Shown: one piece after another, positions 8,481 to 35,206 of the stretch | Layout of the letters: each line of letters starts with the position of its first letter | How positions within the stretch are numbered: position 1 is the first letter of the stretch | From: a virus | Length of the DNA: 35,206 bases | IMG/VR virus record: IMGVR_UViG_3300031525_000821 | Location: 1-35,206 of that record | Reading direction: 5' to 3' (one strand) | Notes under the pieces: generated by a model | Seen by the model: the letters and a program-made list of their open reading frames with translations, nothing else | Told to the model about the DNA's origin: nothing | Database searches by the model: none | Made by a program: the position numbers and the translations under genes

Positions 8481-11400
8481 ATGCGCGACCTCCCGCTGTA
8501 TTCTGCCTTGCCGGTCGCGGCCATCGAGGCGGAGCCGTCGCTCGACCCCGACGACCGGTGCACCCGGTGCGAGCTGTCGGGGCTCCGCCGGGCGACGGAT
8601 CCGGAGACCGGGGAGGAGCGGGTTGAGCCTCGCGATGCGAAGCGGCCCGGCCGCGTTTGTTTGGGTTCGGACGGGGGCAAGAACCCCCGTCCGGGCGGTG
8701 TCTTGGTCGTGGTCGATACGGTGACGCAGGACGACGACCGGCCCCACCCGGCCGGTCGCGTGTTGTCTGGCGTTGCTGGCCACATGGTCCGCCCGTTGGT
8801 GTCGAGGTGGTATCCCGGGCCCGTGACGTACGCGGCGGCGACGCGGTGCCGGCCCTTTCACAAGCTCGCGGTCGAGCACGTGGAGGCCTGTCGCGGCTAC
8901 ATGGCCCGGACGCTGGAGGATGTCCGGCCGGAGCGCATTATCGCGATGGGGTCGCTCGCGGCGCGCTCGATCCTGGGTCGGTCGGTCCAGCCGAACAACG
9001 TCCGCACCGGGTACGCGTACTTGCTCGCCGGGCGCTACCGCGACCGACCCATCCCGGTCTACTTCGTCGGAGCGCCCAAGGGCGCGGTAGACAACCGGTT
9101 CCTGAAGACCCTGCTTGAACAGGACATCGAGTACGCGTTGACGCGGCCGCCGCCGCCGTTGCCACCCCTCGACGCGGTCGTGCGCGTGGTCGAGACCGCG
9201 GAGGACGCCGAGGCCGCGGTGGCGGAGATGAGCGCCGCGCCCTGGTGCTCGGTAGACGTGGAGAGCGCGGGGCAGTTGTTTGACCCGTCGTTCCGGCTTC
9301 TGTGCGTGACCGCGACCCCGGAGCGAGAAGACGAAGCCTTGTCGGAGGATACGTGGACGTGGGACGAGGCCGCGTTGGCGAACCCGGCGACGCGCGCGCC
9401 CCTGGCGCGTTACCTTGCGGACCCTCGCGCACGAAAGTGCGGCGCGAATGTCAAATTCGACCGGTCGGCGCTTGTGACGAATGGGTTCGCGGTCGCGGGG
9501 GTCGACGGCGACGTGCGGCTGTGGCGCAAGTTGCTCGAGGCCGAGGCGCCCGCCGACCTCGCGACGATGGTTGAGTTGGTCGGGATGGGCGGCATGAAGG
9601 ACGAGCAGAAGTTGGCCGAGGCCCCGGCGGTCGACCGGATCACGTTCGGCGTCCACACGGAGCGCCGGTTGGCGAAGGCGAAGGAAGCCGACAAGAAGGT
9701 TGGCAAGCTGTCCGCCAAGGCCGCGGACGGGCTCGCGGCGCTCGCCGACCTCGACGCGCGTCTCCCGCACATCGCCGCGCTCGTTCGGGACGCGGGCGTT
9801 GAGTCGGGCGCTTGGGCCAAGGCGGTCGTACCGGACGACACGCTGCTCGCGTACAACGGTCGAGACGGTGTGGGGACGCGGCGTCTGTTGGCGCGGCTTC
9901 CGCGTGACCTAGCGATCAATCCACAGATCGACCGTATCCGGCGGCTCGTCGTAGACCGTGCCGCGCGCGCTGTGGCTCGGCTTGAGGAGTGGGGGGTCCC
10001 GGTCGACATGAACGCGCTCCGAGCCTTCGACGCGCACTGCACGCTATCGTTGCGCGTGACGCGTGAGAGGCTCGATGCGGAGGTGGGCGTGGATCTCAAC
10101 CCCGGGTCGCCGCAGCAGCTAGCCGAGTTGTTGTATCGAAAGCTTGGGTTCAAGCCGACCAAGCTCACCGCGGGCGGACAGCCATCGGTCGACGAAGAGG
10201 TCTTGGAGAAGCTGCGCGGTAAGCACCCGGTGGTGGACCTCGTGCTGGATCACCGAAAGTACGCAGGACTGCGCTCTAAGTACGCAGGAGGCATGATCCC
10301 GCATGTCCGACCTGACGGCCGCGTTCATTGCTCGATTCTACTCGATGGAGCAGCGTCGGGTCGTGCGTCTATCAAGGATCCCCCGCTACAGCAGATCCCT
10401 AGCAATAAGCGCGACCCTTTGTACGGCAAGATGGCGCGCGACGTCTTCGCGCCTGTGTTTGGTTTCCTTTTCCTACAGGCCGACTACAAGCAAGCAGAGT
10501 TCCGGGTGGCCGCGATGTTGTCTCAGGATCCTGTCATGATGGCTGACATCGCGGCGGGGTTGGACCCACATCTGGCGACGGCGAAGTTCATCTCGCGCGT
10601 GGCTTGGGGTATCTCGCCCGACGAGGTCACGGACGAGCACCGATCCCAGACAAAGTCTGTTGTCTTCGGCGTGTTGTACGGGAAAACAGCGGGGTCTCTT
10701 GCCGCGATGTTCGGTTGTTCGAGAGAACAGGCGCAGAAGATCGTGGATGCCGTAATGGGCCGCTACAAGGTCCTGGCCCGGTGGATCAAGACGAACCTCC
10801 GAGAGGCTCAGAATACTGGGTATGTCTGGACTCAGTGGGCAGGAGAGCCCGCGCGTCGTCGGCCGCTGTTCGACCTTGGCCTGCGCGGCGATCAGAACGA
10901 GGGGCGGCGAGTTCACGCGGCTAACGCCGCCACCAACTGCCTCGACGCCGAGACGGAGGCGCTTACGCGTCGCGGTTGGGTCCGCGGGTTTGATCTCCGT
11001 CCCGACGACGTCATCTTGACCAAAAACGCTGCGACCGGCGCGTTGGAATGGGAGACCATGACCGACCTTCGCCTCTTTCCCGACTATGAGGGCCCCGTTG
11101 TTGAATTCAAGTCGAGGAGCTTCAGCGCGGTTTCCACCCCCAACCACCGATGGCTCGTTGAGACCAAGTCGCGCCAGCCTGGGCGTCGAACGTGCGAGCG
11201 GACTACTCGTACGCTCTCTCCGTGGGGAGATGACCGCATCCACCGGACGGGCGAGTACCGCCCCGACGTCGACAGCGTCTTGACGCCGGACGAAGCGGAG
11301 CTTCTTGGGTGGTTCGTCACGGACGGTTCGATCAGGAAGGCCCATACGGTCGCTGGAAAGCAGAAGAACCGCAGGTATTCCACGACGAGCGCGAGGGCGC

Positions 11401-12248
11401 TCATCCACCAGAGCGGGACCGCGAACGCGGCTAACTGCTCCCGCATCGACGCGCTTCTAGCTCGCGCGGCTCCCAGCGAAACTACTCGTAGGTCGCTGAA
11501 GAATGGGATGGTCGTGTGGAACCTCGGTCGTCGCCTATCGACGCTTCTTATTGGGCTATGCCCAACAAGGACTCTCATGTTGGGGGCCATGCTCCGCCTC
11601 AATCGGCCCGCGCTTGACCGGCTGCACGAGGCAATGGTCCTTGGCGACCGGCATAAGCGGGGCATCTGCACGGGTCGGCGCGAGCAGGCCGAGGCGTTTC
11701 AGATCCTCTGTACACTCACCGGCGCGCACGCGTCCGTTACGTACCGAGACATGAGCCGATACAAGCTAAAGAAGTACCCAAGCATGGGGAACATCCCCGT
11801 GACCGAGGGGTGCTGGTTGTCGGACACGTTGAACCGGAAGACTGTCCAGGTCACTGCGGGCCAGCGCCGCGAGGTCGTGGCGCGCGTCCCGGTGTGGTGC
11901 CCTGTCGTGCCTAACACGTTCTTCGTCGCGCGCCGGAGTGACCACGTGTTCATCACGGGAAACTCGCCCATTCAAGGAGGGGCGAACGAGTTCCAGCTCG
12001 CGAGCCTCGTAGAGGCCGTCGAGTGGATCGAGGTTGAGGGCATCGAGCGGGACGTGAAGCTCCTGCTGCCCGTTCACGATTCGCTCCTGTTCGAGGTAAG
12101 AGCCGATATGGTGAACGACGTTGCCAGGAAAGTGCGTCAGATCATGACGAGCCACGATAGCGGTGGCGTCGCGATGGATGTTGACTGTGAAGTTGGGCCC
12201 GCGTGGGGCTCGCTCTCGAAGTGGAAGGACCCCGATGTTGTCGCGTGA
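8481..12248 (+). CDS. DNA polymerase, family A, with UDG-like N-terminal domain and intein
   Basis: 1255 codons including a 342-residue intein. Residues ~25-220 resemble the uracil-DNA glycosylase superfamily (Cys motif CTRC, GRVLSGVAGHMVRPLV, AAATRCRP, IIAMGSLAARSILG) but the usual GExPG loop is replaced. The 3'-5' exonuclease follows: Exo I VDVESAG (Asp 259), Exo II ANVKFD, Exo III YNGRDGVGT. Polymerase motifs are motif A ADYKQAEFRV (Asp 668), motif B RSQTKSVVFGVLYGK with Arg, Lys, Phe and Tyr conserved, and motif C PVHDSLLFEV (His 1199, Asp 1200). A UDG-like extension on PolA is known from phage SPO1. This is the probable replicative polymerase with proofreading, active after intein splicing. 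Confidence 0.92.
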   Translation: MRDLPLYSALPVAAIEAEPSLDPDDRCTRCELSGLRRATDPETGEERVEPRDAKRPGRVCLGSDGGKNPRPGGVLVVVDTVTQDDDRPHPAGRVLSGVAGHMVRPLVSRWYPGPVTYAAATRCRPFHKLAVEHVEACRGYMARTLEDVRPERIIAMGSLAARSILGRSVQPNNVRTGYAYLLAGRYRDRPIPVYFVGAPKGAVDNRFLKTLLEQDIEYALTRPPPPLPPLDAVVRVVETAEDAEAAVAEMSAAPWCSVDVESAGQLFDPSFRLLCVTATPEREDEALSEDTWTWDEAALANPATRAPLARYLADPRARKCGANVKFDRSALVTNGFAVAGVDGDVRLWRKLLEAEAPADLATMVELVGMGGMKDEQKLAEAPAVDRITFGVHTERRLAKAKEADKKVGKLSAKAADGLAALADLDARLPHIAALVRDAGVESGAWAKAVVPDDTLLAYNGRDGVGTRRLLARLPRDLAINPQIDRIRRLVVDRAARAVARLEEWGVPVDMNALRAFDAHCTLSLRVTRERLDAEVGVDLNPGSPQQLAELLYRKLGFKPTKLTAGGQPSVDEEVLEKLRGKHPVVDLVLDHRKYAGLRSKYAGGMIPHVRPDGRVHCSILLDGAASGRASIKDPPLQQIPSNKRDPLYGKMARDVFAPVFGFLFLQADYKQAEFRVAAMLSQDPVMMADIAAGLDPHLATAKFISRVAWGISPDEVTDEHRSQTKSVVFGVLYGKTAGSLAAMFGCSREQAQKIVDAVMGRYKVLARWIKTNLREAQNTGYVWTQWAGEPARRRPLFDLGLRGDQNEGRRVHAANAATNCLDAETEALTRRGWVRGFDLRPDDVILTKNAATGALEWETMTDLRLFPDYEGPVVEFKSRSFSAVSTPNHRWLVETKSRQPGRRTCERTTRTLSPWGDDRIHRTGEYRPDVDSVLTPDEAELLGWFVTDGSIRKAHTVAGKQKNRRYSTTSARALIHQSGTANAANCSRIDALLARAAPSETTRRSLKNGMVVWNLGRRLSTLLIGLCPTRTLMLGAMLRLNRPALDRLHEAMVLGDRHKRGICTGRREQAEAFQILCTLTGAHASVTYRDMSRYKLKKYPSMGNIPVTEGCWLSDTLNRKTVQVTAGQRREVVARVPVWCPVVPNTFFVARRSDHVFITGNSPIQGGANEFQLASLVEAVEWIEVEGIERDVKLLLPVHDSLLFEVRADMVNDVARKVRQIMTSHDSGGVAMDVDCEVGPAWGSLSKWKDPDVVA
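10938..11963 (+). mobile_element. Intein with LAGLIDADG-type homing endonuclease, in the polymerase gene
   Basis: Residues 820-1161 of the polymerase. The first residue is Cys 820 (CLDAETEALTRRGW, block A); block B is VSTPNHRWLV; the end is VFITGN with Ser as +1 residue (block G). The usual penultimate His is Gly here, a known variation. A dodecapeptide-like ELLGWFVTDGSI and a second LHEAMVLGDRHK indicate a LAGLIDADG (DOD) endonuclease; the second motif has Arg where Gly is usual. The exteins rejoin as NAATN-SPIQGGANEF, a conserved PolA segment near the active site. Splicing is expected because the ends are intact; endonuclease activity is uncertain. Confidence 0.9.
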
Positions 12249-24225: not shown

Positions 24226-25802
24226 TGAAGCGAACGATCCTGGGCGGCGTACGTGTGCTCTTGATCGACGACCTGTCTCCCGAGGACTTGGCCATGTGCA
24301 TGGCCCTTTACGCGCGCTCCGGCGAGAGCGTCGAGGTCCACTACGAGAAAGTCATGAAGGCGCGGCGGCGAGCGCTCTCGAGGGCGCTGGATCCGTGGGA
24401 CTACCCCAACGGCGACCCGGAGGGCGACATCGTGGACGCCGTGATGGATGTTTGGGGCGACAACCACCCGACCGCGCGCGCGGAGAAGCTCGGGAAGCAG
24501 TACGTTGTGGGGTACGGACACCGCAGCATCGCGGACAACGGGTACACCGCACTGTTCTTCGAGGGCGTGTCGATGCTGGCCGCGAAGGCGATCCAAGACA
24601 CGCCGCTGTACAACGGCCAGGAGATGTCCTCGCGGGCGGTTGACTGTGGCGAGCAGCCCTACGTCGATCCGGTCGGTACCCCGGAGTCCCGCGCGGTGTT
24701 GGAAGGATGGCGCGCGTTGTACCGGCGCTGCTTGCTGGCTGCCGTGGACGAGACGATGGTGCGTCACCCGCGGCGCGAGCCCGAGGAGGACTTGGGCCAG
24801 TACAACCGCGCGGTCAACATGCGCGCGTTTGACGTCGCCCGGGCGATGCTGCCTTTCGGGTGCGCGACCCAGGTGGGTTGGAGCGGGACGCTGCGCCACG
24901 TCGGCGAGCGCCTCGGGGTCCTCAAGCACCATCCGAGCGCGGAGGTGCGGGCGCTCGCGGAGGTCGCGATCGAGCTGTGCCACGGGCGCTACCCGGGGTC
25001 CGGTTTCGGGGATGCGGTCGCGTCGGGCGTCGGGCTGCTGAACGAGCCGACCGAAGGCGCCATGGCACGCGACGCTTGGACCGCGCTCGCCGCGTCACTC
25101 GTGACCTACCGGCCGGAATTGGGTCGTCCGCTCAAGGAGAGCGTTTGCTACGACTTCGGTGAAATGAAGTCTGGCTGGCTCGGGAGCCCCGACCCCGACC
25201 TCGTGGAGGGTGAGCAGGCCTTTACCGAGAAGGTTCGTGATCTCCTCCAGTTGCGGCCGCGCGGCGCTTTGCTCCCGTGGAGCCTGACGAAGTACGGGCT
25301 GGCGGACTTTGAGTTCCCGCTGGACATGGGGTCCTGGCGCGACCTCCAGCGGCAGCGAGCGATGGTGGTGCCGACGCCGCTGCTCACGGCGGACCTCGGG
25401 TTCGAGCCGTGGTACCTCGACCAGTTGCCGGCACCCGGCGGCGACAAGCGCGCGGGGAGCCTGGGGGACATCGGCGCGGAGGTCACGGCGTTGCTCCACC
25501 GGGCCAAGGCCGTGACGGACGACCCCGTGGCGCGGCAGTATTACTTGCCGCTGGGCGCGAGGGTCCGCGCGCGCGTCTCGGCAGGTCTGCCGGGGCTCGT
25601 GTACTTCTTGGAGCTTCGGACGGGCAAGACCGTCCACCCGACGCTCCGCGCCCGGGCGCTCGAGATGGCACGTGCGTTCCGCCGGGGGTTTCCGGACGTT
25701 GCGATCCACGTTGACGAAGACCCGGATGGTTGGAGCCTGCGCAGGGGTGCCGCAACGCTCGCGGAACGCGTTAAGGTGGTTGAGTCAACGACCCCTCTCT
25801 GA
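24222..25802 (+). CDS. ThyX-like protein with two fused ThyX modules
   Basis: 526 aa from ATG 24222 (or 24225), with GGAGGAG 24208-24214. ThyX enzymes are usually 220-300 aa. Module 1 has GYGHRSIADNGYTALFFEGVS (about 96-116), matching the ThyX GHxS...EGVS block, but AKAIQDTPLYNGQEMSSR stands where the flavin/dUMP-binding RHRx7S motif is expected. Module 2 has DMGSWRDLQRQRAMV (about 366-380, RQR instead of RHR) and RQYYLPLGARVRARVS with LVYFLELRTGKTVHP. It may be a flavin-dependent thymidylate synthase relative with changed chemistry, such as a base-modifying enzyme. The last codons and the stop come from the inserted IS element. Confidence 0.75.
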   Translation: MMKRTILGGVRVLLIDDLSPEDLAMCMALYARSGESVEVHYEKVMKARRRALSRALDPWDYPNGDPEGDIVDAVMDVWGDNHPTARAEKLGKQYVVGYGHRSIADNGYTALFFEGVSMLAAKAIQDTPLYNGQEMSSRAVDCGEQPYVDPVGTPESRAVLEGWRALYRRCLLAAVDETMVRHPRREPEEDLGQYNRAVNMRAFDVARAMLPFGCATQVGWSGTLRHVGERLGVLKHHPSAEVRALAEVAIELCHGRYPGSGFGDAVASGVGLLNEPTEGAMARDAWTALAASLVTYRPELGRPLKESVCYDFGEMKSGWLGSPDPDLVEGEQAFTEKVRDLLQLRPRGALLPWSLTKYGLADFEFPLDMGSWRDLQRQRAMVVPTPLLTADLGFEPWYLDQLPAPGGDKRAGSLGDIGAEVTALLHRAKAVTDDPVARQYYLPLGARVRARVSAGLPGLVYFLELRTGKTVHPTLRARALEMARAFRRGFPDVAIHVDEDPDGWSLRRGAATLAERVKVVESTTPL

Positions 25803-25811
25803 AGGGAGGGG
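25792..25811 (+). repeat. Left-end hairpin of the IsrB element
   Basis: CCCCTC 25792-25797 pairs with GAGGGG 25806-25811 around TCTGAAGG. The TCTGA in the loop supplies the stop codon of the ThyX-like gene (TGA 25800-25802). TnpA of IS200/IS605 recognises such hairpins on single-stranded DNA. Confidence 0.8.
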
Positions 25812-25996
25812 CTTGAGAAAGGAAGATTCACCACCTCTCCGATCAAGAGACCAAACCGTTGACTAGACATGTCGAAAGACAAGCTGAGCCAGCTAACCGT
25901 GGTAGGTTGAAACGACGTCTCGGGTGTCCCGCTAGCCCGGACCTTCTCGGCAGGCCAGCGTCGAAGCGAAGTACAGACAAGGGGCTTAACGCCATC
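25812..25996 (+). ncRNA. Probable omega RNA (guide scaffold) of the IsrB element
   Basis: 185 non-coding bases upstream of the IsrB start, the place where IscB/IsrB omega RNAs are encoded. Visible structure: CTTGA 25813-25817 with TCAAG 25843-25847; TGTC-GAAA-GACA 25870-25881 (GNRA tetraloop); CGGG-TGT-CCCG 25921-25931; CGACG 25913-25917 closing with CGTCG 25959-25963. GTAGGTTGAAA (25902-25912) also occurs, from memory, in known IscB omega RNA scaffolds. In IscB-type systems the guide lies 5' of the scaffold and comes from DNA flanking the left end, here the end of the ThyX-like gene. The RNA ends are approximate and the RNA may run into the IsrB codons. Confidence 0.7.
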
Positions 25997-27040
25997 ATGT
26001 TCGTTCCCGTCGTAGATCAGAAAAACCAGCCGCTCATGCCGACCTCGCCGGCACGAGCACGTCGCTGGATTGAAACCGGAAAGGCTACACCTTTCTGGAA
26101 ACGCGGTGTGTTTTGCGTTCGCCTGAACGTCGAGCCCTCCGCACGAGAGACGCAAACCATTGCCGTCGGGATTGACCCCGGCAGCAAGCGAGAGGGGTAC
26201 ACCGTCAAGAGCGAAGCACACACGTACCTGAACCTTCACGTCGAAGCTCGTACCGGCGTCAAGGAGGCCGTCGAGGCTCGCCGAAACATGCGGCGTGCGC
26301 GCCGCTTCAGAAAGACGCCGTGCAGGAAGAATCGTCTAAACCGAAGTCGAGGAGGGCTCCCGCCGAGCACGAAGGCTCGCTGGCAGTGGAAGCTTCGGCT
26401 AGCCGGATGGCTGGCGCGAATGTTTCCGATCGTTCGGTTCGTCGTAGAAGACATCGCTGCCGTGACGAAGAAAGGTCAGCGACGGTGGAACAAGTCGTTC
26501 AGCCCTCTCGAGGTGGGCAAGAAGTGGTTCTACCGAGAGTTGGCGAGAGTCGCTCGGGTGAGCACGAAGAAGGGCCACGAGACGAAAGAGATGCGGGACG
26601 CTTGCGGTCTCAAGAAGACCAGCAAGAAGCTCGAAGAGACGTTCGACGCGCACTGCGTTGACAGCTGGGTACTGGCCAACTCGTTCACCGGCGGCCACAA
26701 CAAGCCCGACAACGTGGAGATCCTGTGCGTCGCGCCGCTCGCTCTGCGTAGACGCCAGCTTCACCTGATGCAGCCAGCCAAGGGCGGAGAGCGTCGACGT
26801 CATGGAGGAACGAGAAGTCTCGGGCTTCAACGAGGCAGCATCGTAAAGCACCCGAAGCACGGAATCACTTTCGTCGGCGGGACGCTGGGAGATCGTGTGA
26901 GTCTGCACGCGCTCGACACCGGCAAACGCCTCACGCAGAAAGCAAAGCCGGCTGATTGCCGAGTGCGCTCTCATAACTCGTGGCGTACCTGGACGCCCGA
27001 AATCAGCAAGAAAACCGAACGGGGCTCCTCCCCGACCTGA
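25997..27040 (+). CDS. isrB: IsrB-like RNA-guided nickase (IscB family, no HNH domain)
   Basis: 347 aa from ATG 25997. Order of domains: PLMP motif (NQPLMPTSPARARRWIE, 10-26), RuvC-I AVGIDPGSKREGY (Asp 60), Arg-rich bridge helix RRNMRRARRFRK (95-106), RuvC-II FVVEDIAAV (Glu 151), RuvC-III TFDAHCVDSW (Asp 217, His 219, Asp 222), then a basic C-terminal part. Only ~65 residues separate RuvC-II and RuvC-III, and no HNH motif is present, which fits IsrB (about 350 aa) rather than IscB. All RuvC residues are intact, so an active omega-RNA-guided nickase is plausible. Known relatives cut one strand and may help element maintenance after transposition. ORFs upstream in the same frame are the RNA leader, not coding. 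Confidence 0.88.
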   Translation: MFVPVVDQKNQPLMPTSPARARRWIETGKATPFWKRGVFCVRLNVEPSARETQTIAVGIDPGSKREGYTVKSEAHTYLNLHVEARTGVKEAVEARRNMRRARRFRKTPCRKNRLNRSRGGLPPSTKARWQWKLRLAGWLARMFPIVRFVVEDIAAVTKKGQRRWNKSFSPLEVGKKWFYRELARVARVSTKKGHETKEMRDACGLKKTSKKLEETFDAHCVDSWVLANSFTGGHNKPDNVEILCVAPLALRRRQLHLMQPAKGGERRRHGGTRSLGLQRGSIVKHPKHGITFVGGTLGDRVSLHALDTGKRLTQKAKPADCRVRSHNSWRTWTPEISKKTERGSSPT

Positions 27041-27797: not shown

Positions 27798-28750
27798 CTG
27801 GTATTGAGGCCCTGCCGGCGCCCGGGGATCCTGACGCGGTCTACTGTTTTGACCTGAACGGATTTATCTGGCGGCTTGCTTCGAGTCCGTTCATGGCCGG
27901 CAAGGCCGCGCTGGGGTTCGCCCGGACGCTGCGTCGGATCCTGCGGGAGCGACGTCCGGGTTACCTGGCGGTTGCGGTCGACAACGCGCTGCCGACGTTC
28001 CGCCACGACCTGTTCCGGCAGCACTCGGCCATGTTGGGCGCCGAGGACTACAAGGCCGACCGGGTCAAGCGGATCAAGCCCCACGAGCGCGCGGCCGTGT
28101 TGGAGCAGATTCGCACGGCCCAGGAGCTGCTCGAAGACGCGTACGGCGTCCGGTGCCTCGCGGCCCGGGGGTACGAGGGGGACGACGTCTTGGCGACGCT
28201 GGCCCAGCGCGGGCTCGACGCTGGGCTGAAGGTCGTGGTGGTCGCGTATGACAAGGACATGTTCCAGCTCGTGCAGCAGGACCGCTGTTGGGTCTGGGAT
28301 GGCGAGGGTCGGGTGTTCGACGCCGCGGCGGTCGAGGCCAAGCTCGGGTGCGCGCCGGACCGCGTGGTCGACTTCATGTCGATCGTGGGCGACTCGACCG
28401 ATGGCGTGCGGGGCGTCGTCGGGGCCGGACCGGTCGCGGCGTTGAAGGTCTTGGCGGCGTTCCCAACGCTCGATGCCGCGCTAGAGTCGGCGGAGCGTGG
28501 CGACCAGGACCACCCGCTGTGGCAGCAGGATCCGCGGCTCTGGGCCAAGGTGGTGTCGCAGCAGCGTCAAGCGCAGCTTTGCCGCCAGCTTGTGACGCTC
28601 GCGCGTGACGTCCCGCTGGCCGTGACGCTCCAGGAGCTGAGCCTGTCGGCCTCGATGGCGGTGGAGCTAGCGCTCCAGGACACGACGGCGTCCGAGGCCG
28701 ACCCTGTTGACGGTCCCGAGGCGTTCGAGTGGTCGGTGGCGGATGTTTAG
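27785..28750 (+). CDS. 5'-3' exonuclease / flap endonuclease (FEN family)
   Basis: 321 aa from GTG 27785 (GAGG ten bases upstream); GTG 27794 with a GTGA overlap is an alternative. The FEN pattern is complete: N-terminal FDLNGFIWR with the first metal Asp, DNALPTFRHDLF, GYEGDDVLATLA with the acidic pair, VVAYDKDMFQLV, and a helix-3-turn-helix VGDSTDGVRGVVGAGPVAALK. It should remove RNA primers and flaps, the job of the PolA N-terminal domain that is absent from this phage polymerase (replaced by the UDG-like domain). T4 RNase H and T5 D15 are functional counterparts. Confidence 0.88.
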   Translation: MDPVTGIEALPAPGDPDAVYCFDLNGFIWRLASSPFMAGKAALGFARTLRRILRERRPGYLAVAVDNALPTFRHDLFRQHSAMLGAEDYKADRVKRIKPHERAAVLEQIRTAQELLEDAYGVRCLAARGYEGDDVLATLAQRGLDAGLKVVVVAYDKDMFQLVQQDRCWVWDGEGRVFDAAAVEAKLGCAPDRVVDFMSIVGDSTDGVRGVVGAGPVAALKVLAAFPTLDAALESAERGDQDHPLWQQDPRLWAKVVSQQRQAQLCRQLVTLARDVPLAVTLQELSLSASMAVELALQDTTASEADPVDGPEAFEWSVADV

Positions 28751-28776
28751 TCGCACCGCGGGGTAAGGTGGACGAA

Positions 28777-29580
28777 GTGAGCATCCTATCTGACAGCGCG
28801 GTCCTGGTCGCCATGGACCAAAAGCGCATCGTGATCGATCCGTTCGACCGAGCGCGCCTGGGGTCAAACAGCTACGACGTTGCGCTCGGCCCGCGCCTGC
28901 TGGTCTACGAGACCGAGGAGCCGATCCTGCGTCCGGATGGCCGCGTTTTCTTCCCGGGCGCGCCGACCATCCTGGACGTCCGAAAGCAAAACCCGACGAT
29001 GACGGTCGACATCCCGGAGTCCGGGATCGTCCTGCACCCCGGGCAGCTCTACCTGGGCTCGACGATTGAGCGGACCGAGAGCCACGACTTCGTGCCGGTG
29101 CTGTGTGGCAAGAGCAGCCTCGGTCGGTTGGGCCTTTCCGTGCACGTTACCGCAGGATTCGGGGATGTAGGATTCTGCGGGGCATGGACGTTGGAGCTGA
29201 TGGTCGTGCGCCCGCTCCGCATCTACGCCGGCATGCCGGTGGCGCAGATCGCCTGGCACACCGTCGAGGGTTTGGTTCTGCGACCGTACGGGTTCAAGCC
29301 GGGGGCGAAGTATGCGAACCAGTCGGCGGACCCGGTGGCGTCGGAGATGTGGCGGAACTTCGACGGCCTGAAGCCTGACGAGTGGCGACCGACCCCTAGC
29401 CGCGACCTTCCGCCGTTTAAGCTCAAGCCCGACGAGCGATCACAGCGCTGGCGCGACGCCGAGGCCCTGTGTGGTCCAGGCTACTGCCCACCCGACGCGC
29501 TCAAGATCATCGAGGAAGAGCAGGCCGCGTACGACGCCAAGCTGTCCGCAGTAAACCTCGACGGTGTGGGGCGGCCGTGA
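28777..29580 (+). CDS. dcd: dCTP deaminase
   Basis: 267 aa from GTG 28777 (MSILSDSAVL is the usual Dcd opening; TAAGG 28764-28768 upstream). Family motifs: RLGSNSYDVALGPR (27-40), KSSLGRLGLSVHVTAG (112-127) with the substrate-binding Ser/Arg, and DVGFCGAWTLEL with catalytic Glu 140. It converts dCTP to dUTP, feeding dUMP to thymidylate or modified-base synthesis. Family members are ~170-200 aa; this one has ~75 extra C-terminal residues (DEWRPTPSRDLPPF, a Lys/Glu-rich helix). Whether it also has dUTPase activity cannot be judged. Stop overlaps the first paralog gene (GTGA). Confidence 0.85.
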   Translation: MSILSDSAVLVAMDQKRIVIDPFDRARLGSNSYDVALGPRLLVYETEEPILRPDGRVFFPGAPTILDVRKQNPTMTVDIPESGIVLHPGQLYLGSTIERTESHDFVPVLCGKSSLGRLGLSVHVTAGFGDVGFCGAWTLELMVVRPLRIYAGMPVAQIAWHTVEGLVLRPYGFKPGAKYANQSADPVASEMWRNFDGLKPDEWRPTPSRDLPPFKLKPDERSQRWRDAEALCGPGYCPPDALKIIEEEQAAYDAKLSAVNLDGVGRP

Positions 29581-29825
29581 GCTACGTGGTCCGGATATCA
29601 AGCGGGTATGACCGCTTGGCCTCCTTTTACGTGGCCGACGACGGGAGGATCACGGCGCAATTCGAGGATGCTAAGGAGTACCCGACGGTGGAGGCGGCCG
29701 AGCGAACGACGTTCTGGGTTGCGCGTGTCTGGGTAGGTTATGACGTACGTGTCGTAGACCTTGCGGAAGAACTCCTGACGCGAGAAGCCGCGCGTCAGGT
29801 TGGCGTCGAGGACCCGCTGTGGTGA
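29577..29825 (+). CDS. Small-paralog array member 1, 82 aa
   Basis: GTG 29577 overlaps the dCTP deaminase stop. It carries the family pattern: opening SYVVRISSGYDRLASFYV, middle EYPTVEAAERTTFWV, and the C-terminal signature VRVVDLAEELLTREAAR. Twelve genes between here and 34912 share this pattern (short strand opening, variable middle, A-x-x-F-x-T segment, V-x-L-A-x-E-L-L-x-x-E-A tail). The pattern resembles many small phage proteins of unknown function. No enzyme motif or signal peptide. Confidence 0.65.
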   Translation: MSYVVRISSGYDRLASFYVADDGRITAQFEDAKEYPTVEAAERTTFWVARVWVGYDVRVVDLAEELLTREAARQVGVEDPLW

Positions 29826-30127
29826 GCGGCGCCGCGTGGTTGTTGGTGATGCCGCGACCCCCGGGGGTGAGCCGGCCTGCGCTGATGTGGTATGTTGGGG
29901 GCGCAACCTGGACGTACGACGCGCTCCGCGCGACCGCGTTCCCGACCGCCGAGGCCGCCAAGGCCCAGGTCGACGCCGCCGCGATGGGGCTCGGCCCCAA
30001 GGTCGCGTTGCGCGTCCGGGCGGTGCTGTTCGCGGAGGTGCTGCGCGAGAACGAGGCGGTGCTGCGGCGTGCGGTGCCTGTCCTGACGGACCCACGGGGC
30101 GGTCCTGGGGGACGGGGCCGTGGTTAG
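29822..30127 (+). CDS. Small-paralog array member 2, 101 aa
   Basis: GTG 29822 (GTGA overlap; GTG 29819 also possible). AAWLLVMPRPPG opens, TAFPTAEAAKAQVDAAA is the middle segment, and VLFAEVLRENEAVLRRAV replaces the tail. The tail is a divergent version of the signature and is followed by a Gly/Arg-rich extension (GGPGGRGRG), so this copy differs more than its neighbours. Confidence 0.55.
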   Translation: MSGAAWLLVMPRPPGVSRPALMWYVGGATWTYDALRATAFPTAEAAKAQVDAAAMGLGPKVALRVRAVLFAEVLRENEAVLRRAVPVLTDPRGGPGGRGRG

Positions 30128-30379
30128 GCGCCAAGGGCCTTTCGTCGTTCGGGTCGAGACCTGGGAGGAAGACAAGCCCGTGGCCTTCTGCCGTTGTCAC
30201 CCGCGTGCTCGCGGCGAGGTCGCCTGACGCGTCACCCGTCGTTGGCCGCGGCGTTCGCGGTCGTTGGCCAAGCAAACGTTCTGGCCACCCGATACGCCCG
30301 AAAGTACGGGTGGACCCGCACCTCGCGCGTTGTCCCGCTCGCTGATGCCCTGTTGGAGGTTGAGGCGGGCCTTGTCTGA
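30120..30379 (+). pseudogene. Small-paralog array member 3, frameshifted
   Basis: The N-terminal part starts at GTG 30120 (VVRRQGPFVVRVETWEEDK) and stops at TGA 30225. The C-terminal part continues in the -1 frame: LAAAFAVVGQANVLATRYAR, then TSRVVPLADALLEVEA to TGA 30377-30379. Together they make one family member, so a single-base loss between about 30194 and 30225 is the simplest cause. The second half could start alone at TTG 30194. No slippery heptamer was seen. A sequencing or assembly error is also possible. Confidence 0.6.
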
Positions 30380-30644
30380 GTTCTTGATCCGGTTACACAG
30401 AGACGGAGTCTGGCCGTACTACTGGACCCAGTATTACTTGGGTTGGGTGACAGAGCCCTCGCGGGCGACCCCCTACTTGGAGGAGGAAGCGCGCGAGGAA
30501 CTCAAGCGCGTGATCCACTACTTGGAGGAGGACGCGCGCGAGGCACTCAAGCGCGTGATCCGTCGGACAAGTCAGCCGAGTCTCGACGTCGTTCCGTTGT
30601 CCGACGCGATGTTGGACCGGGCCGCGCGCTATCCCAACCTCTAG
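30372..30644 (+). CDS. Small-paralog array member 4 with internal duplication, 90 aa
   Basis: TTG 30372 overlaps the previous stop. SEFLIRLHRDGVWPYYWTQY opens; the middle contains two 15-residue copies (YLEEEAREELKRVIH, YLEEDAREALKRVIR); the tail is LDVVPLSDAMLDRAAR. The duplicated helices are highly charged and probably form an extended amphipathic helix. The stop lies back-to-back with the end of a minus-strand gene. Confidence 0.6.
   Translation: MSEFLIRLHRDGVWPYYWTQYYLGWVTEPSRATPYLEEEAREELKRVIHYLEEDAREALKRVIRRTSQPSLDVVPLSDAMLDRAARYPNL
30473..30562 (+). repeat. Tandem 45-base duplication (2 copies) inside array member 4
   Basis: Units 30473-30517 and 30518-30562 begin CTACTTGGAGGAGGA and differ at only a few positions. 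The unit is a multiple of three and keeps the frame. Low divergence suggests a recent duplication. Confidence 0.85.
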
Positions 30645-30883
30645 CCCAACGCCTCCTCTTCGAAGTGGCGCAGGCCGTGGAGGGACCTCGGCGCGCGCAA
30701 CGCGGCGCTCGGGCGCGAGCGTGCGACCGCCGCCCAGACGGCCTCCGCGGCTTCCTCAGCCGCCGACAGGATCGGCGGCGGGTACTCGAGCGCGCTCAGG
30801 GGGGCCGTGACCCGCGTACGCCTCGCCGGGTACGGGGCCGCGTAGGGGTTGCAGATTTTGGCAGACTGGGGCACAAAGCTCAT
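30641..30883 (-). CDS. Hypothetical protein on the minus strand, 80 aa
   Basis: The only plausible minus-strand gene in the window. ATG at 30883-30881 has AGAGGT seven bases upstream (plus-strand 30891-30896). It reads SFVPQSAKICNPYAAPYPAR at the start and HGLRHFEEEALG at the end; the middle is an Ala-rich helix (AAEEAAEAVWAAVARSRP). It converges on array member 4 and diverges from members 5-11 across a 250-base gap. No family recognised. A small regulator is one idea, but it has no clear helix-turn-helix. A chance antisense frame cannot be ruled out. Confidence 0.5.
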   Translation of the reverse strand: MSFVPQSAKICNPYAAPYPARRTRVTAPLSALEYPPPILSAAEEAAEAVWAAVARSRPSAALRAPRSLHGLRHFEEEALG

Positions 30884-30912
30884 CACGTTGACCTCTTGCT
30901 CAGGTTGACCAG

Positions 30913-30939
30913 GCCCTCGGCGTTACCCGCGCCGGGGGC
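30913..30939 (+). terminator. Hairpin with T-rich tail in the divergent gap
   Basis: GCCCTCGGCG 30913-30922 and CGCCGGGGGC 30930-30939 form a 10-bp stem with one G-T pair and loop TTACCCG, followed by TTTCGTTCGTCT. It would end plus-strand transcripts running antisense through the minus-strand gene, insulating the next group of paralogs. A second weaker stem (ACCGGGCC/GGCCCTGGT, 30963-30988) follows. Confidence 0.5.
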
Positions 30940-31048
30940 TTTCGTTCGTCTGAGAAGCTAAAACCGGGCCGGAGTCGCGGCCCTGGTAACTTAAGGCTTT
31001 TCTAGCAATTCTGCACGGCCGGTAGACGCAAAAACGCATCACACGTCC

Positions 31049-31054
31049 TACAAT
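31049..31054 (+). promoter_or_regulatory. Possible -10 box (TACAAT) before the second paralog group
   Basis: TACAAT lies in the AT-richer part of the 30887-31133 gap, 79 bases before GTG 31134. No good -35 is visible. The gap also contains TTAAGGCTTTTCTAGCAATT (about 30991-31010) and a GGGGGTAAGGA Shine-Dalgarno (31114-31124) before the next gene. Confidence 0.3.
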
Positions 31055-31133
31055 TGCGCATCGGGGCGATCAACCCCGGGCGTAAGGGCGGCGCGGGTTC
31101 CGAAGCGTCGCCCGCGGGGGTAAGGATCCGGGC

Positions 31134-31382
31134 GTGGGCGAACAGCATGTCGGCGCGTGGATCGTGAAAGTAGTCGGCGGACACGTAGACGTGTCCGCGG
31201 CGTGGGTGGTGCGCATCGGCGCGATGACAGGGGCCAGCCGCGTCACGACCGAGCCCGGGAAGGCGGTGTTCACCACCCGAGCCACGGCGCTCGACTGGAT
31301 GAAGGCAAACCACGCGTCCGCGGGGTGCGCGGTTCCGCTGGCTGATGAGCTGCTTGAGTGCGAGGCCCGACGGACGCCATGA
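31134..31382 (+). CDS. Small-paralog array member 5, 82 aa
   Basis: GTG 31134 with TAAGGA ten bases upstream (31119-31124). GAWIVKVVGGHVDVSAAWVV opens, AVFTTRATALDWMKA is the middle segment, GCAVPLADELLECEARR the tail. First gene of a seven-gene run (31134-32961) with 4-base or shorter overlaps. The GAGGC within the tail codons serves as Shine-Dalgarno of member 6. Its upstream stretch (GGGTAAGGAxCCGGGGCGTG-like) closely resembles the one before member 12 at 34564. Confidence 0.7.
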   Translation: MGEQHVGAWIVKVVGGHVDVSAAWVVRIGAMTGASRVTTEPGKAVFTTRATALDWMKANHASAGCAVPLADELLECEARRTP

Positions 31383-31642
31383 AGCAAGCGTGGATCCTGC
31401 GGGAGTTGCCTGACGAGCCTGACGTGGCGCTCTCGTCGGTCTGGCGGAGACCTACGCTCTACGTAAGCGTGTACGGTGACGATTGCGCGGTCTTCGCCCT
31501 TTCGGCAGCAAAGGTGTTCCGGTCGGCAGCTTGCGCAGAGCGTCACCGTCGTCGTCTTTTGATGCCCGATCGGTGGACCGTGGTTCCGTTCGCGGACGCG
31601 ATGCTCGATTACGAGGCGGCGCGCCATGAGGCGGCCCGATGA
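31379..31642 (+). CDS. Small-paralog array member 6, 87 aa
   Basis: ATG 31379 overlaps the previous stop (ATGA). KQAWILRELPDEPDV opens; AVFALSAAKVFRSAACAE is the middle; RWTVVPFADAMLDYEAARHE the tail, with the last EAAR duplicated (EAARHEAAR). Two free Cys. Function unknown, as for all members. Confidence 0.7.
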   Translation: MKQAWILRELPDEPDVALSSVWRRPTLYVSVYGDDCAVFALSAAKVFRSAACAERHRRRLLMPDRWTVVPFADAMLDYEAARHEAAR

Positions 31643-31902
31643 GCCGCGATGCTGGCTGGGTCCTGAAGTCGCGGATGACGGCGGAGTACTTTGTGGCTGG
31701 GGTTCGGACGGGAGGTACTTGGTACACCGGGGTTCGGACGGGAGGTGCTTGGTACACCGTCGCGCCCTACTGTTCGATGGGCCGCGTGTTCTGGACGGAA
31801 GCCGACGCCCAGGAGGCCCGCGGTCGCCTCGACGACCCGGAGACGTGGATCGTGGTCCCGTTGGCGGATGAACTGCTGGAACAGGAGGCCCGACGCCGAT
31901 GA
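31639..31902 (+). CDS. Small-paralog array member 7 with internal repeat, 87 aa
   Basis: ATG 31639 (ATGA overlap). GWVLKSRMTAEYFVA opens, then two copies of GVRTGGxWYT, then RVFWTEADAQEARGRL, then WIVVPLADELLEQEARRR. The repeated aromatic strand may lengthen a beta-hairpin. AGGAGGC in the tail codons (31884-31890) is the Shine-Dalgarno of member 8. Confidence 0.72.
   Translation: MSRDAGWVLKSRMTAEYFVAGVRTGGTWYTGVRTGGAWYTVAPYCSMGRVFWTEADAQEARGRLDDPETWIVVPLADELLEQEARRR
31701..31760 (+). repeat. Tandem 30-base duplication (2 copies) inside array member 7
   Basis: Units 31701-31730 and 31731-31760 start GGTTCGGACGGGAGGT and differ at only two or three positions. In frame (10 residues each). Confidence 0.85.
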
Positions 31903-32189
31903 CCTGGGTCTTGGTCTGTAGACGCCCCGGCGCGCAACGCGGCGCGCAACGCGGCGCGCAACGCGGCGCGCAACGCGGCGATACTTATTACGCCCGGGAC
32001 CTGCGTTCGCACGGTGAAGACTGGCCATACACGCTCATGCTCGACTTCGCCCAGGAGTTCTCGACCGAGCAAGCCGCGCTCGCGCATCGGATAGAGCACC
32101 CCAGCGATGATCACGAGCTTGTGGTGGCGGGTCCTTGGATCGTGGTTCCGCTGGCGGATGAGCTGCTGGAACGGGAGGCGCGGCGCTGA
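31899..32189 (+). CDS. Small-paralog array member 8 with GAQR repeat, 96 aa
   Basis: ATG 31899 (ATGA overlap). TWVLVCRRP opens, then four GAQR units, then DTYYARDLRSHG, then EFSTEQAALAHRIEH, then WIVVPLADELLEREARR. The tail is closest to the family consensus. The basic repeat could contact nucleic acid or simply be a tolerated expansion. Confidence 0.72.
   Translation: MTWVLVCRRPGAQRGAQRGAQRGAQRGDTYYARDLRSHGEDWPYTLMLDFAQEFSTEQAALAHRIEHPSDDHELVVAGPWIVVPLADELLEREARR
31929..31980 (+). repeat. 12-base microsatellite, 4.3 copies, inside array member 8
   Basis: GGCGCGCAACGC repeats exactly four times (31929-31976), plus GGCG. In frame, encoding GAQR. Perfect identity means a very recent or actively slipping repeat. 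Confidence 0.95.
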
Positions 32190-32467
32190 TGAGCTGGGTC
32201 CTGAAGCAGGCGGCGTTCCACGACGGCCGTGTACCTAAGGAGCCCCCCGCGCCGTACTACCTGGGCAGGACTCGCCCCGTGGCTCAGGACTCCGCGGCGG
32301 CGTGGTACACGAGTCCTGGGGACGCGATCGAATTCACGACCGAGCAGGATGCACGGGACTTCGTTCAGGAGCGGGGGATCCTCGGGGAGTGGCGACCCGT
32401 TGATCTCGCGGGTGAACTGCTGGCGCGCGAGGCTGCGGGCCCGAGCGGCAAGCCGGACCGCGGATGA
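32189..32467 (+). CDS. Small-paralog array member 9, 92 aa
   Basis: ATG 32189 shares a base with the previous stop (TGATG); GGGAGG in the tail codons of member 8 is its Shine-Dalgarno. SWVLKQAAFHDGRVPKEPPA opens, AIEFTTEQDARDFVQ is the middle, WRPVDLAGELLAREAAG the tail, with a short polar extension (PSGKPDRG). Confidence 0.7.
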   Translation: MSWVLKQAAFHDGRVPKEPPAPYYLGRTRPVAQDSAAAWYTSPGDAIEFTTEQDARDFVQERGILGEWRPVDLAGELLAREAAGPSGKPDRG

Positions 32468-32474
32468 GGACCCG

Positions 32475-32699
32475 ATGCCCTGGATCCTGAAGCAGGACAG
32501 ACCCTGGCCCTGGTACGTGTGGCGCGCGTTCCCAGCGCTCGTCGCCAACGGGGCGTACCACATGACCGATAGCCCCGGGAGGGCGCTCGCGTTTGACACG
32601 TGGGCCGAGGCCGACCGCTTCCGTAGCCCCAGTCTCGACCTCCATTGTGTCAACCAGGCGGACGAGACGCTGTCGTGGGCCGCGGCCCAGCACCCGTGA
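32475..32699 (+). CDS. Small-paralog array member 10, 74 aa
   Basis: ATG 32475 with GAGGA just upstream (32466-32470). PWILKQDRPWPWYVWRAFPA opens; ALAFDTWAEADRF is the middle; the tail is divergent (HCVNQADETLSWAAAQ). It is very Trp-rich. The only member in the run that starts after, rather than overlapping, the previous stop. Confidence 0.62.
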   Translation: MPWILKQDRPWPWYVWRAFPALVANGAYHMTDSPGRALAFDTWAEADRFRSPSLDLHCVNQADETLSWAAAQHP

Positions 32700-32961
32700 A
32701 GGCCGCGAAGCCCGTGTGGATCGTGAGATTCGGGTCGCGACGATCGACGATGTGGGCCTGCCTTGCTGGCTTTACTTGTACATGGACGCCAACGACGACG
32801 TTGAGGCGACGAGCTGGCTTGACCTCGCGACCGAGTTCCCTCGTTCGGGGGAGGCGCGCCGGCTTCTGAAGCGGGGGGGTCTAGGCCCCGTGGGCTGGGA
32901 ACCCGTGGACCTCGCGGACGAGATGCCTGAACACGCGTTGGAGCACGAGTCGCGGCGCTGA
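32696..32961 (+). pseudogene. Small-paralog array member 11, frameshifted
   Basis: GTG 32696 (GTGA overlap) begins KAAKPVWIVRFGSR in the family style, but that frame loses similarity and stops at 32869. The -1 frame carries the rest: LPCWLYLYMDANDDVEATSW, LATEFPRSGEARRLL, GWEPVDLADEMPEHALEHES to TGA 32961. The shift lies between about 32720 and 32777. It could be a decayed copy or a sequence error; no slippery site was seen. Confidence 0.55.
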
Positions 32962-32985
32962 GTCGCGGCGCTGAGTCGCGGCGCT
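32947..32985 (+). repeat. 13-base tandem repeat (3 copies) at a stop codon
   Basis: GAGTCGCGGCGCT repeats exactly at 32947-32959, 32960-32972 and 32973-32985, then GAG. The unit is not a multiple of three. The first copy ends member 11 (SRR then TGA across the junction). Confidence 0.9.
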
Positions 32986-33137
32986 GAGCAGAAACCTGTC
33001 TGCGGGGCGTTCGGGCTCAACGGCGTAGGCGCGCTCTAGCGTGCGTCTCCGTGGAGCCTCCTTGGGAACCCGGGCCAGTATATCGCCGGACGCGCCAGAA
33101 GCGTCTCGTGTGGCCGCGACGCCCCCCGGGCGCCCGC

Positions 33138-33170
33138 TCGGAGCTTCCTCGGAGCTTCCTCGGAGCCTCC
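33138..33170 (+). repeat. 11-base tandem repeat (3 copies) in the 32962-33224 gap
   Basis: TCGGAGCTTCC at 33138-33148 and 33149-33159, then TCGGAGCCTCC at 33160-33170. The 263-base gap otherwise holds no convincing gene; it contains a promoter-like sequence near its right end. Confidence 0.85.
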
Positions 33171-33185
33171 TCCCGCGCCCCACGC

Positions 33186-33215
33186 TTGCGGCAAGGGCTG
33201 CCGCGCCGGTACAAT
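33186..33215 (+). promoter_or_regulatory. Sigma70-like promoter close to the next start codon
   Basis: TTGCGG 33186-33191 and TACAAT 33210-33215 with an 18-base spacer. The -10 is near-consensus. Initiation would fall about 33221-33223, next to ATG 33225, giving a leaderless or nearly leaderless mRNA. No Shine-Dalgarno is present before that ATG, which fits. Confidence 0.45.
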
Positions 33216-33224
33216 GCCCTCTCC

Positions 33225-34079
33225 ATGCCGAGAAAGTTCCGTCCCCCGGTCGACCCCGCGCTGCGCCAGAAGCGCCCCGCGCTGCCCCGTACGCGCGCGC
33301 TCTACGATGAGTATGTCGAGCAGTTCCGCCGGGATAGCCGCATCGCCCGGGTCGCCGCCCACTTCGGCGTCACGTGGACGACGGCCCGGATCGTCTACCA
33401 CGACGGGTGGGTCGGGATCCCCTGGGCCCGGCCGATCAAGAAGGTCCTGGAGCAGGACGTCTTCGAGGAGGAGAACCGGTCCCGGGAACAAGCCCGCCGC
33501 GACCGCGCCCGGGAGCTAGAGGCCCGGGAAGCCGAGCAGGAAGCGAAGCGCGAGGCCCTGAAAGCCGAGCGACAACGGGCCCAAAACGAAGAGGCCACGC
33601 TGGTCACCAGCACCCGCCGAGGCCTCCAGCAGCTTGCCTCAGTCGTGCTGGCGCTGAGCCCCGCGGCGGCCCAGATGGTCCGGGTCGTGATGCGCGAGGC
33701 GTTCGACGAGACCGTCGGGCCGGACGGCAAGCCCCAGTACACGCCCAAAGCCATCCCGACGATCAAGCCCGACGCCGCGATGAAGTACCTGAACGCCATG
33801 GCCCAGATGGCGGCCCGCGTGACCGTCGCGGGCGTGGATCTTTCGCACTTTGCCGCCGAACGCCGTGGGCCGGAGCCCACGGTGGGCGCGGTTGAGATGA
33901 CGGAGGAGGAGAACGAGGAGGCGTTGCAGCACGCCCGCTCCATCCTGTGGAGCCTCGACGAGGAGGCCCGGCTGAAGCGGGAGGACGCGTACCCGCGGCC
34001 CGAGGCCCCGGCGGTCGCGCGGGAGGACGCCCCGGACAAGCCCTCGATCGGGCCCCAAAACCCGGGCGAAGTGCACTAA
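33225..34079 (+). CDS. Helix-turn-helix and coiled-coil protein, possible small terminase subunit
   Basis: 284 aa from ATG 33225; the frame is open upstream but the tandem-repeat gap precedes it. Residues ~25-65 look like a helix-turn-helix (YDEYVEQFRRDSRIARVAAH, FGVTWTTARIVYHDGW). A long charged coiled coil follows (about 80-125, EAEQEAKREALKAERQRAQ), then a helical domain and an acidic, Pro-rich tail. DNA-binding plus an oligomerising coil is the plan of phage small terminase subunits, and its place after the replication genes would fit the start of a packaging module. No large terminase is seen before the window ends, so a transcription regulator is an equal alternative. Confidence 0.6.
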   Translation: MPRKFRPPVDPALRQKRPALPRTRALYDEYVEQFRRDSRIARVAAHFGVTWTTARIVYHDGWVGIPWARPIKKVLEQDVFEEENRSREQARRDRARELEAREAEQEAKREALKAERQRAQNEEATLVTSTRRGLQQLASVVLALSPAAAQMVRVVMREAFDETVGPDGKPQYTPKAIPTIKPDAAMKYLNAMAQMAARVTVAGVDLSHFAAERRGPEPTVGAVEMTEEENEEALQHARSILWSLDEEARLKREDAYPRPEAPAVAREDAPDKPSIGPQNPGEVH

Positions 34080-34080
34080 A

Positions 34081-34145
34081 GGTATATACCTTTGCTTGCG
34101 GGTATATACCTTTGCTTGCGGGTATATACCCGAAGGTATATACCC
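34081..34145. repeat. Four copies of the palindrome GGTATATACC: candidate operator or iteron array
   Basis: Perfect palindromes at 34081-34090, 34101-34110, 34121-34130 and 34135-34144. The first three are spaced exactly 20 bases with identical spacers TTTGCTTGCG; the last two are separated by CGAA and form an 11-bp hairpin (34120-34130 with 34135-34145). Very AT-rich against its background. It fills the gap between the coiled-coil gene and the next start (ATG 34153). Likely a cooperative protein-binding site (repressor operator, partition or replication site); the last hairpin could also act in RNA. Confidence 0.85.
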
Positions 34146-34152
34146 CGGATTC

Positions 34153-34569
34153 ATGGCAGCTAAACAGAAGCGACTGTTGGTTTGGTCGGCGAGGGCAGAG
34201 GCGGCCCTTCGTCGCGCGGAAACGGAGCGGAGGGCCTCCTTGGGTCGGGAGCTTCTCCCGCGCGAGAAGTCTGCAAGCTCCGTTGTGCTCTGGGCCCTTG
34301 AGTCGGTCGGGTCTCCGCGACCTACTATCCGTGAGCGTGTCCGCGAGAAGGTTGTGCAGGCTCATGTGTATCTTGAGGGCGACCCCGTGGGCGAGCAACA
34401 CGACGCTGCCGTCGCCATGGCTAGGCTGCGCGAGATCGAGGCGCACCCTGAGCGCCTCGTGAGGGGCGAAGAACTGGGGAAGCTCCTTGATGGGCTGGCG
34501 GAGTTCCCCGAGCCCTTGGTCGAGTACGACGACCCTCGGGTTGCCGCGAAGAAGGCCCGGCGCGGGTAA
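34153..34569 (+). CDS. Hypothetical basic helical protein, 138 aa
   Basis: ATG 34153, eight bases after the last palindrome, with no Shine-Dalgarno, so translation may be leaderless. AAKQKRLLVWSARAEAALRR opens; the rest is charged helices ending VAAKKARRG. Palindromic operator-like sites directly before it suggest it is regulated through them, or encodes the protein that binds them. No helix-turn-helix was recognised with confidence. Confidence 0.6.
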   Translation: MAAKQKRLLVWSARAEAALRRAETERRASLGRELLPREKSASSVVLWALESVGSPRPTIRERVREKVVQAHVYLEGDPVGEQHDAAVAMARLREIEAHPERLVRGEELGKLLDGLAEFPEPLVEYDDPRVAAKKARRG

Positions 34570-34579
34570 GGACCGGGGC

Positions 34580-34912
34580 GTGCCCTGGATCATCAAGCTC
34601 ACGGAGCTGGCCACGACGCACTGGCCCTCCCCGGGACGGACGGCGTACCTGCGGGCGTGGCCCCAAGGCCCTGTTGGGTGGCGCGCCGTCCAGATGACGC
34701 ACATCGTCGCGACCGACGGCGCGGCCGTTTGGGTGCCAGAGCTGAGCCTGGCGAAGGTGTTCGCCACCGAGGAGATCGCGCGCGCCGCGGCGGACCGATG
34801 CCGGTCCAAGATCGGGGAGGCGCGGTTTGTGCGGCTTGAGTTCGCGGACTGGGCGGGGGAACTGTTGGAGCGAGAAGCCGCCCACGCTGGGGGTAAGGGA
34901 CCGCGAACGTGA
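34580..34912 (+). CDS. Small-paralog array member 12 (detached copy), 110 aa
   Basis: GTG 34580 with GGGTAAGGA upstream (34564-34572), nearly identical to the sequence before member 5. PWIIKLTELATTHWPSPGR opens, LAKVFATEEIARAAADR is the middle, FVRLEFADWAGELLEREAA the tail, with a Gly/Lys-rich extension. It is 1.6 kb from the main array, behind the coiled-coil and unknown genes. Its stop overlaps the tnpB start (GTGA at 34909). Confidence 0.68.
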   Translation: MPWIIKLTELATTHWPSPGRTAYLRAWPQGPVGWRAVQMTHIVATDGAAVWVPELSLAKVFATEEIARAAADRCRSKIGEARFVRLEFADWAGELLEREAAHAGGKGPRT

Positions 34913-35206
34913 AGATCCTCCGAGCGTACAAGACCGAGCTGGACCCCACGGTCTCCCAGACCGAGCAGCTCCTACAGCACGCCGGTTGCGCTCGCTGGGC
35001 TTACAACTGGGGTCTCCGAAGGAAGATCGAGTCCTACGAAGCTACGGGCAAGAGTCCGTCCTGGGTGGATCTCAACCGCGAGCTGAACGTGATCAAGAAG
35101 CTCCCCAAGGAAGCCGGCGGGGTCCCGTGGATGTACGAGTCCTCGAAGTGTGCCCCGCAGGAAGCGCTCCGAAACCTTGATCGAGCCTTTGAGGGCTTCT
35201 TTCGTC
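34909..35206 (+). CDS. tnpB: TnpB-type RNA-guided nuclease, N-terminal part (runs off the window)
   Basis: GTG 34909 begins KILRAYKTELDPTVSQTEQ, then CARWAYNWGLRRKIESYEA, then NRELNVIKKLPKE, then ALRNLDRAFEGFF, the standard N-terminal helix-turn-helix and wedge opening of IS605/IS607 OrfB (TnpB). The RuvC part is outside the window. TAAGGGA 34894-34900 is its Shine-Dalgarno, and it overlaps array member 12 by four bases, so it is translated with the phage operon. No left-end hairpin was seen upstream. Full length and activity cannot be judged. Confidence 0.85.
   Translation, partial: MKILRAYKTELDPTVSQTEQLLQHAGCARWAYNWGLRRKIESYEATGKSPSWVDLNRELNVIKKLPKEAGGVPWMYESSKCAPQEALRNLDRAFEGFFR

Follow-up and report, generated by a model that had tools for sequence, protein, structure and literature searches.

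The closest known counterparts of the genes considered here are small phage proteins that occur once per genome. SmphiM12_372 (AGR48004.1, 89 aa) of Sinorhizobium phage phiM12, with orthologues in phiM7, phiM19 and phiN3, carries its motifs in the same order as our family (a YIIR opening, YYES, W, ATIFRT..IA and DIVPLRGEL), but is present in one copy, has a shorter C-terminal helix and lies among other neighbours. Hypothetical proteins of the Brevundimonas phages Kikimora (KIKIMORA_00780), Gurke, Bambus and Marchewka share a WVLR opening, YYETP, W, ATIFTSFEAGEA and DVVPLYGEIL; they differ in having one convincing copy per phage and no LLEREARR helix. Orf36 (80 aa) of Lactococcus phage 1358 resembles the family pattern in its FVIM opening, YY, AKVYKTEAGANKA and VLDI, although it is a single copy without the tail helix and was missed by the sequence HMM. 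A small protein of Prochlorococcus phage P-TIM68 (69-codon frame, 107628-107807) has the pattern MVWHIKK..YYKGNNTWTENFEERSTYTSQAKA (E 0.003), but is likewise single and in another genome context. A literature search returned no description of the family.

The array described here is carried by a 35,206-base virus record (IMGVR_UViG_3300031525_000821), analysed over its full length and referred to below as the window. Its last 13,308 bases are identical (100%) to part of a 169,748-base IMG/VR contig, IMGVR_UViG_3300037255_000025 (G001), and the polymerase proteins of the two records are identical too. As G001 encodes a tail sheath, tape measure, portal, baseplate wedge and head protease, it belongs to a contractile-tailed phage (myovirus).

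Relatedness to proteins of other phages

In phiM12 the family HMM found a single protein (E 0.0016). Four Brevundimonas jumbo phages each yielded one as well (E 5e-5 to 5e-4 per genome). When the search was reversed, with a profile of these phage proteins, the first six of the 2630 G001 ORFs were family members, each with an E value of only 0.3-5 and not significant singly; the similarity to the SmphiM12_372/KIKIMORA_00780 domain is thus seen in both directions, in reverse by rank only. The turn in the tail is also common to the relatives (DIVPLRGEL and DVVPLYGEIL vs VVPLADELL). A match in 201phi2-1 (E 0.004-0.008) spans only part of the domain.

Foldseek searches of BFVD with the two AlphaFold2 models described below gave 162-178 weak matches, with probabilities up to 1.00, E values of 0.009 or weaker and query TM scores mostly of 0.4-0.7. 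The fifty matches listed are all small phage proteins that are uncharacterised or lack a name, and the two models have entries in common. They include S5MDG1, an 89-aa phiM12 protein, and D3W0G7, an 80-aa protein of Lactococcus phage 1358 matched by both models; from the matching phage and length these are presumably SmphiM12_372 and Orf36, respectively. Within the searches made, homologues were found only in phages. From the profile and model comparisons we conclude that the domain is probably widespread in phages and unnamed, and any notion of a family peculiar to this phage has to be revised. What distinguishes this virus is the expansion to about 28 copies and the added C-terminal helix, LLEREARR. 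The comparison links many anonymous small phage proteins, usually met singly in a phage, to a common domain that has its own signature and predicted fold; one genome offers about 28 natural variants of it.

IMG/VR protein searches with single members found nothing beyond the same virus, and a DNA search of phage records with the array gave no match. A degenerate tail pattern run against IMG/VR and genome contigs hit the same virus and chance matches only (checked with the HMM), and gapped head-middle-tail patterns gave seven matches, all by chance. No family member was seen in 385 Alphaproteobacteria genomes, in a search that had no positive control. Searches seeded with the DNA polymerase and the tail sheath revealed no close relative phage; the best-matching tail sheaths belong to Streptomyces phages (~25% identity), and in three of those phages no family member was detectable.

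Extent and organisation of the array

The original prediction listed twelve related small genes; all twelve are present at the given positions and are indeed related. An HMM was built from ten proteins of a second cluster only (165.7-168.7 kb of G001), without window sequences. Among the 519 window ORFs its thirteen best matches were the twelve listed genes and a further ORF at 100-609, with E values of 1e-13 to 9e-5 for eleven of the listed genes and 0.005 for the gene at 29822; the next best ORF had an E value of 0.43. The full family HMM, run on 2630 reversed or shuffled ORFs, gave best E values of 0.016 and 0.58. In pairwise local alignments of the twelve, most pairs beat 200 shuffles (best z 13-15), and the most divergent members, 29822 and 32475, had weak pair-by-pair support.

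Two of the twelve, at 30120 and 32696, are frameshifted rather than intact (Table 1). Both frameshifts are present in both records, which may come from one assembly, and sequencing error is a possible cause. Nor are the twelve the full set, given the thirteenth member and the copies elsewhere. A profile from ten window members matched 28 places in G001, which by this measure would hold about 28 members: 12 in this array, a further 11 in an opposite-strand array at 165.7-168.7 kb and five singles at 7.2, 18.7, 70.3, 78.0 and 149.7 kb. The expansion and diversification within one phage is thus stronger than had been claimed.

Table 1. Family members in the window and the gene preceding the array (positions are those of the window)
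Feature	Position	Strand	Length	Remarks
13th member	100-609	+	169 aa	Long insertion; tail VIIVDQAQEMLRYAAK; second-cluster HMM E 2.4e-4, sequence read
dCTP deaminase	28729-29580			DCD domain
m01	29577-29825	+	82 aa	Start overlaps dCTP deaminase stop by 4 nt
m02	29822-30127	+	101 aa	Most divergent tail (VLFAEVLRENEAV)
m03	30120-30379	+		Disrupted; N-terminal part in frame to 30227, tail RVVPLADALLEVEA in other frame; split 30120-30227 / 30128-30376
m04	30372-30644	+	90 aa	In-frame 45-nt tandem duplication
m05	31134-31382	+	up to 82 aa	Upstream GGGTAAGGATC
m06	31379-31642	+	87 aa	
m07	31639-31902	+	87 aa	In-frame 30-nt duplication
m08	31899-32189	+	96 aa	In-frame 12-nt repeat x4.4 (AQRG) in first loop
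m09	32189-32467	+	92 aa	Second AlphaFold model
m10	32475-32699	+	74 aa	Diverged tail (VNQADETLSWAAAQ)
m11	32696-32961	+		Disrupted; WIVRF opening vs WEPVDLADEM tail in different frames; tail frame open from 32716; split 32696-32869 / 32716-32961
m12	34580-34912	+	110 aa	Stop overlaps TnpB gene start at 34909

Neighbouring members usually overlap by 1-8 nt, but the array is interrupted by 490 nt without a member after 30644, and two unrelated ORFs (33051-34079 and 34096-34569) stand ahead of m12. Within the 490-nt gap (30641-31130) there may be an 81-aa gene on the minus strand, and a hairpin resembling a terminator lies at 30966-30983. The short overlaps, including that between m01 and the dCTP deaminase gene, suggest co-transcription with the replication and nucleotide genes, and from this arrangement expression of the array would probably be early or middle.

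Conserved core, variable loops and loss of copies

Members are mostly 74-110 aa long and follow a common plan: an opening [WFY]-[VIL]-[LIV]-[KR], a variable loop, Y, W-T, the middle motif A-x-x-F-x-T-x-x-x-A, a second variable stretch and the tail, with consensus V-[DP]-L-A-[DG]-E-L-L-E-R-E-A-x-R. The WxxK/R opening proposed earlier describes most members (W in 15/21, K or R in 16/21), although the consensus is broader. An A in the middle motif and an A in the tail are invariant (21/21). The shared middle motif and tail against a strongly varying rest are borne out, with identities of 45-49% for the former and 8-14% for the loops. The conserved positions form a hydrophobic core (with W, A, F and T) together with the tail, and include no conserved catalytic set.

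AlphaFold2 was run with the 21 paralogues as the sole alignment. For a compact member it predicted a beta-beta-beta-alpha-beta-alpha fold with a mean pLDDT of 92 (a strand, two short strands, helix 33-44, strand 50-55 and helix 56-75); for m09 the mean pLDDT was 78 and the first loop was uncertain. No significant fold or sequence relative was found in the PDB, and Pfam, NCBIfam, PADLOC and PHROGs gave no significant match to members; single weak Pfam, PHROG and NCBIfam matches differed from member to member and were taken to be chance.

AP2-type DNA-binding domains consist of a three-stranded sheet followed by a helix, which the predicted fold recalls, and four GGTATATACC palindromes lie ahead of the m12 operon; the copies could accordingly be regulators or other nucleic-acid-binding proteins. 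Against this, the AP2 domain (PF00847) had no match at E 1 in the 169.7-kb contig, and the PDB search gave no significant fold match of any kind. Basic conservation is limited to K/R at position 5 and R67, with no conserved basic patch elsewhere. The mean pI is 6.5 for members (range 4.5 to 11.1) and 6.8 for the small genes of the phage, and this absence of an overall charge bias argues against a uniform nucleic-acid binder or a DNA mimic. We consider such a role very unlikely.

Codons were compared at aligned positions across the 21 members. In the first loop codon positions 1/2/3 differ in 0.71/0.73/0.67 of pairs (amino acid identity 0.08), and in the tail in 0.33/0.37/0.60 (amino acid identity 0.49); 60% of identical tail residues use different codons. 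Because third positions in the tail vary nearly as often as they do in the loops, it is selection at the protein level that maintains the tail, which is not a shared DNA repeat. A GGAGG-like sequence does occur shortly ahead of the next start in m07 and m08, whose junction DNA is 87% identical, as would be expected if the tail existed mainly as DNA, giving the following gene a ribosome-binding site or a recombination repeat. This explanation is largely refuted by the codon comparison, and lone members that no other member follows still keep the tail; it is extremely improbable.

The loops, on the other hand, look free to vary. Positive selection in them is unmeasurable because silent sites are saturated, and with identity at random level they may be simply unconstrained rather than diversified. 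A diversity-generating retroelement acting on them was rejected, as G001 (which may be incomplete) has no RVT_1 match. In-frame tandem repeats occur in three members (45 nt in m04, 30 nt in m07 and 12 nt in m08); they are nearly perfect and therefore probably recent. In addition to the two frameshifted genes, the second-array member at 166387 is without its tail in frame, and the single member at 149741 is cut by a TnpB remnant. Together, the broken copies and repeats fit a pattern of gene birth and death.

Such turnover could be mostly neutral, in which case a harmless small gene duplicates easily and its copy number means little for function. The broken or truncated copies (30120, 32696 and 149741) and the repeats drifting in the loops are consistent with this, but the core and tail have been constrained at the protein level over a very long divergence (mean column identity ~22%). 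Phages seldom retain ~7 kb of open frames that serve no purpose, which also counts against a neutral explanation, and we regard it as rather unlikely.

Possible roles and genome setting

With no catalytic pattern, uniform charge or known family, the best reading is that members are small binding scaffolds with variable loops; most likely they are target-binding proteins, and the variable interface suggested originally would fit conservation confined to the core and tail. We propose that a small phage domain (~75 residues) may have been duplicated in tandem and scattered to give about 28 copies in one myovirus. Selection at the protein level maintains the core and the C-terminal amphipathic helix V-[DP]-L-A-D-E-L-L-E-R-E-A-x-R; the inter-strand loops drift or diversify, changing length through in-frame repeats, and some copies have decayed. 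Each copy would then be a small soluble protein that binds, through its variable loops, a different target in the host or in a rival mobile element. The constancy of the helix suggests a shared role, such as the pairing of copies or docking to a common partner. Against this account, the single-copy homologues in other phages show that one copy can suffice. The account as a whole is put forward tentatively, as a serious possibility. Should the loops indeed have different targets, the array would offer a ready panel for identifying host proteins that phages attack.

A stricter version would make the 28 or so copies a repertoire of adaptors, kept in tandem arrays: each set of loops would bind a single host or rival target, and the helix would bring them all to a shared effector. 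This version seems to us distinctly unlikely.

The targets could instead be bacterial immune systems, each copy being a specific counter-defence protein that blocks a different one. The family is phage-specific, small, diversified and clustered in an accessory-like operon, all of which would suit such a role. However, no PADLOC, Pfam, NCBIfam or PHROG family of such a role was matched, and no defence or counter-defence family of the first three was found in the 21 members or in the ten window members. No neighbour with a known anti-defence role was identified, and around the homologues nearly every neighbouring gene encodes a hypothetical protein, with none recognisably related to defence. Counter-defence is possible, with nothing pointing there in particular, and on balance unlikely.

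Genes ahead of the array in the window encode, among others, a family A DNA polymerase with a uracil-glycosylase-like part, a gp32-like protein, an SbcC-like ATPase, a ThyX-type thymidylate synthase, an IscB-like RRXRR protein, a kinase-like ATPase, a 5'-3' exonuclease and the dCTP deaminase. The polymerase (1255 aa, 8481-12248) has its uracil-DNA-glycosylase-like part at the N-terminus (E 2e-5). The IscB-like gene (25784-27040; RRXRR domain, E 3e-36) is overlapped by a full-length but weak HEARO RNA match (36 bits, under the curated cut-off).

A stretch of 210 bases within a TnpB gene recurs at both ends of G001 (99% identity). The contig could thus be nearly a complete circle, although the repetition of TnpB keeps this from being proof. 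Three TnpB genes (~87-91% identical) and three remnants were found: in G001 the genes lie at the contig ends, 112.8 kb and 159.7 kb and the remnants at 12.4, 85.1 and 149.7 kb, and in the window TnpB occupies 34909-35206. Three of these six directly adjoin or interrupt family members. TnpB elements often stand after a GGTAAGG motif, and further TnpB relatives with two TnpA-like genes lie at 19.6-36 kb of G001.

The four GGTATATACC palindromes (window 34077-34141; spacing 20, 20 and 14 nt) are the sole four in the 169.7-kb contig and immediately precede the small operon whose last genes are m12 and TnpB; they resemble an array of operators or iterons. In the 25 nt ahead of predicted genes in G001, GGTAAGG (~22-fold) and TAGGCT (33-fold) are strongly enriched but the usual AGGAGG is not, with examples in the window at 31111-31136 and 34557-34582.
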